Assembly: GCA_030425645.1 (NCBI GenBank)
Contig: JAUHZK010000005.1
Coordinates: forward strand, 124,001 to 188,000
Reading direction: 5' to 3'
Length of the DNA stretch: 64,000 nucleotides
Source: Gammaproteobacteria bacterium
Lineage (GTDB): Bacteria; Pseudomonadota; Gammaproteobacteria; JAPPPA01
Shown: piece by piece, positions 7,632 through 63,071 of the stretch
How the letters are laid out: every line of letters starts with the position of its first letter
Numbering within the stretch: the first letter of the stretch is position 1
The notes under the pieces: model-generated
What the model saw: the letters and a program-made list of their open reading frames with translations, nothing else
Told to the model about the DNA's origin: nothing
The model's database searches: none
Position numbers and translations under genes: made by a program

Positions 7632-7653
7632 TTTAAATCTCTCTCTTTAACCT

Positions 7654-7758
7654 GCCCTTCGACAAGCTCAGGGCGAACGGCTAATGTCCGTTCGGGCTGA
7701 GCCTGAACGGGCCAAGTCAATTAACAAGGCACCGTTAGCCCTGAGCCTGTCGAAGGGC
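7654..7758. repeat. Compound REP-like inverted repeat (CTTCGACAAGCTCAGG family)
   Basis: Two 27-base arms (7654-7680 and 7732-7758), inverted and differing at two positions, share the core CTTCGACAAGCTCAGG. Between them a third related hairpin has arms CCGTTC and GAACGG (7688-7710). The element fills most of the desC-desB gap. The second copy in the window is at 10307-10376. It should form a stem-loop in the desC-desB mRNA and could uncouple expression of the two genes. Confidence 0.85.
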
Positions 7759-7772
7759 GCGCAATAAGTTAC

Positions 7773-10287: not shown

Positions 10288-10306
10288 CAGAACACTAATG
10301 CCCCGC

Positions 10307-10376
10307 CCTTCGACAAGCTCAGGACTAACGTTGTACGTATCGAACAATTCCCCGCTAGTCCTGAGCCTGTCGAAGG
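10307..10376. repeat. REP-like inverted repeat, second copy of the CTTCGACAAGCTCAGG family
   Basis: Arms at 10307-10327 and 10356-10376 are inverted copies with a single mismatch, sharing CTTCGACAAGCTCAGG, around a 28-base centre. The same core is in the element at 7654-7758. It lies between two small genes of the same direction and is AT-balanced, with no coding content. Confidence 0.85.
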
Positions 10377-17551: not shown

Positions 17552-17581
17552 CCGGGACAGACCCATTTGGGTCTGTCCCGG
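17552..17581. terminator. Strong 13-bp hairpin after cydB
   Basis: CCGGGACAGACCC (17552-17564) pairs perfectly with GGGTCTGTCCCGG (17569-17581) across ATTT. It lies between convergent cydB and the DUF3127 gene and is a likely bidirectional terminator. Its arm sequence, GGGACAGACCC, is the same core as the larger GGGGACAGACCCC elements at 34642, 61964 and 62997. Confidence 0.75.
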
Positions 17582-17608
17582 CTGTTTTACGGCTGTTTTA
17601 GCTATTGA

Positions 17609-34618: not shown

Positions 34619-34641
34619 GCTTTATCTCTCCGGAAAGAAAA

Positions 34642-34716
34642 GGGGACAGACCCCACTTCGAAAAACATCGTGCACTACAGCAGTACACAAAGACCAAACA
34701 GGAGGGGTCTGTCCCC
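34642..34716. repeat. GGGGACAGACCCC inverted-repeat element (copy A)
   Basis: GGGGACAGACCCC (34642-34654) and GGGGTCTGTCCCC (34704-34716) are perfect 13-base inverted arms, 49 bases apart. The element lies in the intergenic region upstream of msrA. Two elements of the same size are at 61964 and 62997. The interior sequences differ, so the arms are the conserved part. Confidence 0.9.
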
Positions 34717-38272: not shown

Positions 38273-38593
38273 CTAATCCCAGCGCGCGTCGCGCACAAAA
38301 ATGATGCCGTTTTCAATTTTGACCGGCATCGTCGGCAGATCCCCAAACGCTGGTGGCGCGGTGTTTTTACCCGTTTTTAAGCAGAAACGCGCGCCGTGGA
38401 ACGGACACACAATCTCGCCATCTTCAACACTGCCATCATGTAACGGCAATGAATCATGAGTACAGAAGTCCTCTACCGCATAAATCTCGCCGTCTACGTT
38501 AAGCACCAATACCGGCACGCCATCCACATCAATCGTAGTACGTGAACCGGGACCAAATTCTGCTTCTGGCGCTACGCCAAACCAGTCAGCCAT
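38273..38593 (-). CDS. Rieske-type ferredoxin
   Basis: The 106-residue protein has the Rieske cluster motif: CTH at residues 44-46 and CPFHG at 63-67, spacing as in oxygenase-type Rieske ferredoxins. The two Cys and two His bind a 2Fe-2S cluster. It could donate electrons to an oxygenase or take part in Fe-S assembly. It is the last gene of the suf operon direction, separated from sufT by the DUF559 gene, and suf operons of many gammaproteobacteria end with such a ferredoxin. Confidence 0.88.
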   Translation of the reverse strand: MADWFGVAPEAEFGPGSRTTIDVDGVPVLVLNVDGEIYAVEDFCTHDSLPLHDGSVEDGEIVCPFHGARFCLKTGKNTAPPAFGDLPTMPVKIENGIIFVRDARWD

Positions 38594-38596
38594 TTT

Positions 38597-38977
38597 CTAA
38601 ACCTTTCCTGTATTTCTTCCCTCTCCCTTTGAGGGAGAGGGACCGAGGGAGAGGGTGTCGAGTATTTTCTCTAACACCCCATCCATTTCATTCAAAACTT
38701 CATTGTTCCAAAACCGCAACACAGTAAAGCCTTGCTGCTTTAAAAACTGCGTACGCGTTTTGTCATAACTTTTTTGTTGTTGATGTTGACTGCCATCAAC
38801 CTCAACAATCACTTTTGATTTCTTACAAACGAAATCAACAATGTAATTACCAATCGGCACTTGCCGCCGAAATTTAAAACCCGAAAAACGCTTCGCTCTT
38901 AATTGGTACCAAAGCTTTTGCTCAGCATCCGTCATGTTTTGACGGAGTGACTTGGCGTTTTCTAGCGTGGTTGGCAT
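38597..38977 (-). CDS. DUF559 (Vsr-like nuclease-fold) protein
   Basis: The 126-residue protein has the DUF559 pattern LRQNMTDAEQKLWYQLRAKRF, FRRQVPIGNYIVDFVC and VEVDGSQH, matching PD-(D/E)XK-type endonucleases related to Vsr. The C-terminal LGPSPSKGEGR is encoded by a hairpin repeat. It interrupts the suf operon between sufT and the ferredoxin and is flanked on both sides by repeats of one family, suggesting insertion of the gene with its repeats as a cassette. Confidence 0.85.
   Translation of the reverse strand: MPTTLENAKSLRQNMTDAEQKLWYQLRAKRFSGFKFRRQVPIGNYIVDFVCKKSKVIVEVDGSQHQQQKSYDKTRTQFLKQQGFTVLRFWNNEVLNEMDGVLEKILDTLSLGPSPSKGEGRNTGKV
38619..38655. repeat. Purine/pyrimidine hairpin repeat at the 3' end of the DUF559 gene
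   Basis: CCCTCTCCC (38619-38627) pairs with GGGAGAGGG (38633-38641), followed by a second GAGGGAGAGGG. It encodes the GPSPSKGEG tail of the DUF559 protein. A related, longer copy is at 38994-39080 on the other side of the gene. Confidence 0.85.
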
Positions 38978-38993
38978 AACTGAGATTGCCGCC

Positions 38994-39080
38994 CCCTCCC
39001 CTAGCCCCTCCCCCTAACCGGTGGAGGGGAACATTCGCTCCCCTCTCCCTTGAGGGAGAGGGGCTGGGGGAGAGGGTGTA
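38994..39080. repeat. Purine/pyrimidine hairpin repeat upstream of the DUF559 gene
   Basis: CCCCTCTCCCT (39040-39050) pairs with AGGGAGAGGGG (39053-39063) across a 2-base loop, and another pair (CCCCTCC.../GGAGGGG) precedes it at 38994-39029. The element lies between the DUF559 gene and sufT and resembles the copy at 38619. Confidence 0.85.
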
Positions 39081-39085
39081 AACAG

Positions 39086-39475
39086 TTATAGCAAACCTAA
39101 TTGCAGCTTCGCTGCTTCAGACATATTGTCTTGTGTCCAAGGTGGATCCCAAATAATTTCCACCTGCGCTTCCACCACACCGTCTACCGACTCAATGGCC
39201 GCGCCGACGGTGTCTGGAAAAGTTTGCGCCACTGGGCAACCAGGCGCAGTCAGCGTCATTTTGCAGTCAACATTACCGAGGTCATCGATATCAATGGCGT
39301 AGATCAAACCCAAATCAAAAATATTGACCGGAATCTCTGGGTCATACACCAGCTTCAATGCCGCGATGATGGCATCAAGCATTTCTTCTTTGTTTTCATA
39401 CAGCGGGTTAATGCTGTCTTGGCCTTCTGTCACATTGGTGGACAGAAGTTGATCTGATGGTTTTGGCTCTGACAT
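39086..39475 (-). CDS. sufT: SUF system Fe-S assembly protein, DUF59/MIP18 type
   Basis: The 129-residue protein has the MIP18/DUF59 domain (ALKLVYDPEIPVNIFDLGLIY, then MTLTAPGCPVAQTFP with the conserved Cys). SufT-like proteins help mature or transfer Fe-S clusters. It starts three bases after sufS in the same operon. No sufE or sufU gene is seen beside sufS. Confidence 0.9.
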   Translation of the reverse strand: MSEPKPSDQLLSTNVTEGQDSINPLYENKEEMLDAIIAALKLVYDPEIPVNIFDLGLIYAIDIDDLGNVDCKMTLTAPGCPVAQTFPDTVGAAIESVDGVVEAQVEIIWDPPWTQDNMSEAAKLQLGLL

Positions 39476-61963: not shown

Positions 61964-62037
61964 GGGGACAGACCCCACCGTCCAAGCACATCGCTACTCA
62001 ATCGTTTGTGGCGAGTTTGGAAGCGGGGTCTGTCCCC
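61964..62037. repeat. GGGGACAGACCCC inverted-repeat element (copy B)
   Basis: Perfect 13-base inverted arms GGGGACAGACCCC (61964-61976) and GGGGTCTGTCCCC (62025-62037) lie 48 bases apart, between the dehalogenase and EamA genes. The right arm is followed by TTTTCCC. Spacing is almost the same as in the other copies. Confidence 0.9.
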
Positions 62038-62059
62038 TTTTCCCTTTTCTTCTTAAGCT

Positions 62060-62996: not shown

Positions 62997-63071
62997 GGGG
63001 ACAGACCCCACCGGCTTAACATTGCCAAACTCAAACGTTCAACACGATTTTTAAAAACGGGGTCTGTCCCC
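62997..63071. repeat. GGGGACAGACCCC inverted-repeat element (copy C)
   Basis: Perfect 13-base inverted arms at 62997-63009 and 63059-63071, with 49 bases in between, located just upstream of the EamA start. With copy B it brackets the EamA gene, about 1.03 kb apart. Confidence 0.9.

Follow-up and report, generated by a model that had tools for sequence, protein, structure and literature searches.

A DUF559 nuclease-fold gene between inverted triplex-forming repeats as a candidate minimal mobile element

A DUF559 gene in a suf operon is flanked by repeats with the layout of intrastrand DNA triplexes, and the same pairing of gene and repeat is found at DUF559 loci elsewhere. We consider it somewhat probable that the gene makes up one minimal mobile element together with its inverted, triplex-forming ends, and that gene-free doublets of such ends are its non-autonomous derivatives. 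DUF559 genes are, to our knowledge, widespread and have no agreed function. With the element reading, this function and the origin of the boxC/PIT/TM repeats would be joined, and both become testable in E. coli K-12, which carries the DUF559 gene ycjD and 23 copies of the repeat. If the reading is true, a bacterial protein family would be tied to DNA triple-helix structure, and the rearrangement of such loci between strains would be accounted for.

The locus between sufT and the Rieske ferredoxin gene

In the window, which here means the whole stretch of 64,000 nucleotides analysed, sufT, the DUF559 gene and a Rieske ferredoxin gene all lie on the minus strand, and the DUF559 gene parts the other two (Table 1), as the preliminary description had said. 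The span given there, 38619-39080, includes the repeats and all of the gene except its last 22 bases. The claim that a repeat codes for the C-terminus of the protein was correct: the tail of the downstream element points toward the gene, the element overlaps the 3' end of the gene, and its outer part encodes GPSPSKGEG, with the translated protein ending in ...GPSPSKGEGRNTGKV. Hairpins do flank the gene on both sides, but each is a stem-loop with a mirror-image purine tail, and two of them stand upstream, where the outer and inner elements form an outward pair. All three elements have a perfect stem and a mirror-image third strand with no third-strand mismatch, and the stem pattern had no chance match in 100 shuffles of the window. 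Two of the three make a 33-nt direct repeat with 88% identity. Three further places in the same genome carry gene-free elements or pairs.

Table 1. Positions of the DUF559 gene, its neighbours and the triplex elements in the window.
Feature	Position	Strand	Remarks
Rieske [2Fe-2S] ferredoxin gene	38273..38593	-	neighbour, context only
DUF559 (PF04480) single-domain nuclease gene	38597..38977	-	126 aa; profile match and predicted fold
Whole cassette, repeat to repeat	38617..39080	.	same gap in same-genus genome G001 without cassette
Downstream triplex element	38618..38656	+	stem 11, loop 3, spacer 3, mirror tail 11, 0 mismatch
Upstream inner triplex element	38995..39029	-	stem 7, loop 11, spacer 3, mirror tail 7; tail toward gene
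Upstream outer triplex element	39040..39077	+	stem 11, loop 2, spacer 3, mirror tail 11; tail away from gene
sufT (SUF-associated Fe-S assembly protein)	39086..39475	-	neighbour, context only

The same-genus genome G001 has neither the DUF559 gene nor a triplex repeat between sufT and the Rieske gene, but the gap is no clean empty site because it holds a different insert. Thus, relative to G001, the presence of the cassette at this site is variable, without a clean empty site. Among 27 SufT loci in 24 genomes, only the window's own carried a DUF559 gene or a triplex repeat, and a repeat-less DUF559 gene conserved in suf operons, which would have spoken against a mobile cassette, was found at none of them. 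The insert that stands in the sufT-Rieske gap of G001 is a long palindrome of a different kind (L097:1372-1494).

The protein matches PF04480 over nearly the whole profile (E 7e-49, 164.6 bits against a curated cut-off of 20.6), and PF18741 was the only other family matched in the profile search. An AlphaFold2 model (mean pLDDT 82.9) supports the proposed Vsr-like nuclease fold, with the N. gonorrhoeae DUF559 protein 3HRL as the best match (Z 17.4, rmsd 1.3, 94 aligned), followed by I-Bth0305I (3R3P, Z 12.3) and Vsr (1CW0, Z 10.0). Holliday-junction-resolvase-type proteins are also among the fold relatives. The residues E19, D48, E59, H65, D72 and others are invariant among 66 aligned proteins, which is consistent with a nuclease site. 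An HMM match to I-Bth0305I was obtained as well (E 7e-5); in the HMM alignment to the 3R3P chain, however, A and W stand in the D48 and H65 columns, which calls for caution in equating the residues one to one with the EDxHD site. A weak similarity over a short stretch to a cholera-type toxin B subunit was attributed to chance.

The predicted fold is thus shared with the catalytic domain of the EDxHD homing endonuclease I-Bth0305I. In contrast to the latter, neither an intron nor an additional DNA-binding region was seen at the DUF559 locus, and repeats take the place of a fixed homing site. The modelled likeness is treated as one of fold, and the element is not classed among the homing endonucleases. 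Vsr likewise has the fold in common but differs in genomic context; an HMM match between YcjD and Vsr has been reported (PMC1189080).

Repeat architecture and association with DUF559 genes

The repeats in the flanks of 80 named DUF559 relatives have a common layout of pyrimidine arm, loop, purine arm, a turn of 2-3 nt and, last, a tail of purines. With asymmetric arms, this tail mirrors the 3' arm, as in GGGGAAAGG-CAA-GGATAGGGG and, at the locus L075, GGGGAAGA-TTG-AGAAGGGG. Of 128 hairpins that have asymmetric arms and are G-rich on the 3' side, 90 end in a perfect mirror tail, related copies among them being non-independent, compared to a mean of 14.4 and a maximum of 26 in 1000 trials of tail swapping. 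The rule was obeyed by 36 different arm sequences (mirror match of at least 0.85). Since the finder used for near and far elements gives similar counts for both forms, its counts alone do not separate a mirror tail from a direct copy of the arm. In the 128 asymmetric arms, a direct copy was ruled out, with 8 perfect direct against 90 perfect mirror tails. A G-quadruplex was also considered as the structure that is conserved. The pattern G3N3G3N3G3N3G3 fits many elements, yet the L075 element lacks four G-runs and keeps its mirror tail, and the mirror rule therefore fits better. An antiparallel purine triplex requires a mirror third strand, which duplicated or inverted DNA is not expected to give.

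In a long-turn variant, the spacer itself can form a stem of at least 5 pairs in 23 of 55 cases, whereas exchanging spacer halves gives 1.8 (max 6); this figure uses the stricter of two spacer-hairpin rules, the looser one having given 31/304. We take the hairpin in the turn as a sign that selection acts on the single strand in its folded form. Judged by its sequence, the element is a predicted intrastrand triplex motif of the boxC/PIT/TM repeat class; a search against Rfam gave no match above the gathering score.

DUF559 genes elsewhere carry the same repeats at their ends, which was a check suggested in the preliminary description. Loci were picked by protein score with the flanks ignored, namely the best-scoring 29 of a class search in 274 genomes and the best-scoring 27 of a phylum search in 200 genomes, and the window's own locus was excluded. 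At 49 of these 56 best-scoring loci, a triplex element lies within 400 bp of the gene, upstream at 39, downstream at 38 and on both sides at 28. The arrangement is inverted: the tail of the nearest element points toward the gene in 69 cases and away from it in 8. Reversed sequences (0/56) and Markov simulations (0) gave no such elements. The loci of the 80 named relatives, which according to the submitter titles come from at least 13 phyla, agree with this, with any element at 68, elements on both sides at 40, and 90 tails toward the gene against 18 away (Markov simulation, 0.2/80). At the same loci, 122 elements were found in 88.9 kb near the gene and 24 in 266 kb far from it, which is about 15 times fewer per kb. 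The inner gap between elements had medians of 356 and 376 bp, leaving room for only one gene. The stop codon of the ORF lies inside or beyond the downstream element at 38 of 48 and 28 of 36 loci (66/84 together), and the overlap of element and ORF end seen in the window is thus typical of DUF559 loci. Selection bias from a repeat-coded peptide pattern was dismissed, as KGEGRN is encoded in a forward frame at 0 of the 80 loci.

The association also holds at the level of genomes. A fixed repeat pattern was present in 39 of 59 class genomes with a strong DUF559 hit, at a cut of E 1.7e-17 set after the list was seen, compared to 26 of 190 genomes without a hit (OR 12, p 3e-14; 274 genomes in total). 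Genomes with weak hits only had the pattern in 4 of 25 cases, and a backward control pattern matched 2/274. Outside the class, the result was replicated with 22/35 against 9/99 (OR 17, p 1e-9), weak-only genomes giving 2/13 and 2 intermediate genomes being put aside. Within 26 families that contain both a carrier and a non-carrier of DUF559, the carrier had more copies in 16, fewer in 4 and as many in 6 (p 0.012). The 20 of 59 DUF559 genomes lacking the one pattern searched include the window's own, which carries elements of a slightly different form, and some that carry the hairpin-turn variant missed by the pattern. There are also repeat-rich genomes without a DUF559 match, such as G048 (44 copies), G272 (60), G411 (15) and G400 (123).

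Matches were obtained in 3 of 50,697 phage records and in 49 of 72,556 plasmid records, some of the latter being of chromosome size. PADLOC returned weak matches alone, mostly to parts of large proteins. The protein is too short for its tree to be resolved, with 19 label changes for 13 groups against 12 possible. At one DUF559 locus (L024), a tandem array of CCATCAAGGGAGTAAAGAGAAG units lies downstream of the gene and is perhaps a decayed element array.

Gene-free doublets and the repeats of Escherichia coli

Doublets of elements without a gene are dispersed in genomes and vary in their presence between relatives. In G295 and the same-genus genome G411, gene-free doublets of fixed spacing have common ends and different outside sequence. 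The doublet at 435.8 kb in G295, together with a second element, is absent at the aligned G411 site (gap 124 vs 436 bp). Among E. coli strains, EM10-18-28 lacks the hrpB-mrcB doublet, and 94_0962 has it in a form shortened by a deletion from arm to arm. Strain 536 carries a reduced alx-sstT pair, and 98201 lacks the fepB-entC pair. No duplication of a target site was identified. From their sequences, the gene-free inward doublets appear to behave like miniature mobile elements.

A second doublet family, of the hairpin-turn triplex type, is represented by L198:522-621 and many matches in G427, and this doublet type also flanks a DUF559 gene in G295 (L207). The genome G231 has 44 pattern matches, most of the listed copies being identical, and its genus-mate G116 has 1; by sequence, the G231 copies are probably a recent burst.

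The boxC/PIT/TM repeats were described by Holder et al. (2015) with a stem-loop-tail layout and 23 copies in E. coli K-12 (PMC4666352). The same source reports triplex formation by the E. coli motif in vitro by CD and NMR, and in vivo DMS probing that gave no support for a stable triplex. The triplex element 168 bp past the end of ycjD, the DUF559 gene of K-12, is TM_ECO copy no. 9 of that description (1351239-1351204, PMC4666352). A good element was found on one side of ycjD only. The gene is present in 3365 of 5426 E. coli genomes, and in the ycjD-less strain followed, an efflux operon stands at the site, as reported in PMC12817139; this is an operon replacement and no clean empty site.

The window elements share the stem-loop-tail layout with boxC/PIT/TM (ITxF) repeats, among which inverted pairs also occur. 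In PMC4666352, however, these are described as orphan repeats without a linked mobility gene, with no mobility functions found near the copies, whereas they are tied here to DUF559; the words 'nuclease' and 'DUF' have zero occurrences in its text. The tie to DUF559, the hairpin-in-turn variant and the inward cassette add to this description. A paper joining DUF559 to triplex repeats was not found in the open-access literature, and since the search covered this literature only, its absence is not proof.

Proposed mechanism and alternative explanations

In its autonomous form, the mobile element would consist of one DUF559 nuclease gene with an inward-facing triplex element at each end; the non-autonomous form would be a gene-free doublet of two inward elements, about 90-120 bp in all. 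When the element strand is exposed as single-stranded DNA, on the lagging strand or during repair, it may fold into the stem-loop with its third strand. Having a nuclease fold of the Vsr/EDxHD type, the DUF559 protein would recognize the folded element and cut at or near it, and repair of the break would copy or insert the cassette or doublet elsewhere, either by homing-like break repair or by single-strand excision and insertion. In this way, the nuclease would move the cassette and drive the spread of the repeats. As far as we know, a hydrolytic nuclease alone cannot rejoin DNA, so that host repair or an unseen partner would have to complete the move.

In RAYT/REPIN systems, one gene is flanked by inverted palindromic repeats, and gene-free doublets are dispersed in the chromosome. 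The DUF559 gene between inverted copies, with gene-free doublets elsewhere, resembles this arrangement. In contrast to RAYTs, the flanked gene encodes no HUH/Y1 transposase, as PF04480 and PF18741 are its only matches, and the end is a mirror-tailed triplex motif instead of a tagged REP hairpin. With its unrelated enzyme, the system is RAYT/REPIN-like without belonging to that group. The recurrence of the gene-repeat pairing in many phyla suggests the DUF559 family as the spreader of the repeat class. Tentatively, and with slightly less than even confidence, we propose a separate class of bacterial mobile elements, present in many phyla, whose small hydrolytic nuclease of the Vsr fold reads a DNA triple helix and spreads its own gene and the doublets. 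This class would be the missing source of the boxC/PIT/TM repeats.

The main rival to the mobile-element reading is a repair-type nuclease located near its substrate. Here, DUF559 would be a structure-specific repair or anti-repeat enzyme, the repeats would be spread by something else, and the gene would lie beside its substrate by autoregulation or chance. Such a role agrees with the Vsr and Holliday-junction-resolvase-type fold relatives, with the existence of repeats without a DUF559 gene, and with the Caulobacter DUF559 protein VsrA, reported to be a Vsr-like repair enzyme (PMC12907096). It would, however, leave unexplained the inward copies at both ends of one gene at many unrelated loci, the overlap of element and ORF end (66/84) and the patchy distribution, and we regard it as unlikely.

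Passive trapping, with DUF559 hitch-hiking by homologous recombination between repeats that act as recombination hot spots, is more improbable still. All five inward pairs with an inner gap of 150-1500 bp, assessed by eye among the first places listed for each genome, hold DUF559, which counts against trapping, since other genes should be caught too. This stands against the arm-to-arm deletions in the E. coli doublets and the Legionella segments with a transposase and DUF559 that are reported to have been hot spots of mutation and recombination during experimental evolution (PMC12308824), both of which would fit trapping.

Spread of the repeats by REP-associated (Y1/HUH) transposases, with DUF559 incidental, is very doubtful. 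The crude association of Y1_Tnp with the repeats (58/186 vs 11/88, OR 3.2) decreases to a weak MH OR of 2.6 once DUF559 is fixed (strata p 0.16 and 0.06), while DUF559 keeps an MH OR of 11 across transposase-positive and transposase-negative strata, and G048 carries its 44 copies with neither gene. A role of the repeats in terminating or regulating the DUF559 gene, instead of one as mobile ends, would suit their closeness on both sides of it but hardly their dispersal without the gene, or the lack of promoter and terminator activity of E. coli copies in earlier work cited by Holder et al. (PMC4666352), and is just as doubtful.

Several other repeats were observed in the window, apart from the triplex elements. 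A second palindromic repeat family (GGGGACAGACCCC / GGGTCTGTCCCC) has direct and inverted copies at 34637-34665, 61964-62042, 62997-63071 and 17569-17592; it may be linked to a Y1 transposase, and the genome has one Y1 transposase match (E 8e-11). Doublet-like inverted pairs on CCTTCGACAAGCTCAGG / CCTGAGCCTGTCGAAGG lie at 7651-7769 and 10294-10376. Between about 20455 and 30711, three tandem paralogous stretches follow each other 3.8-4.4 kb apart, with 72-76% identity over 300-nt blocks.
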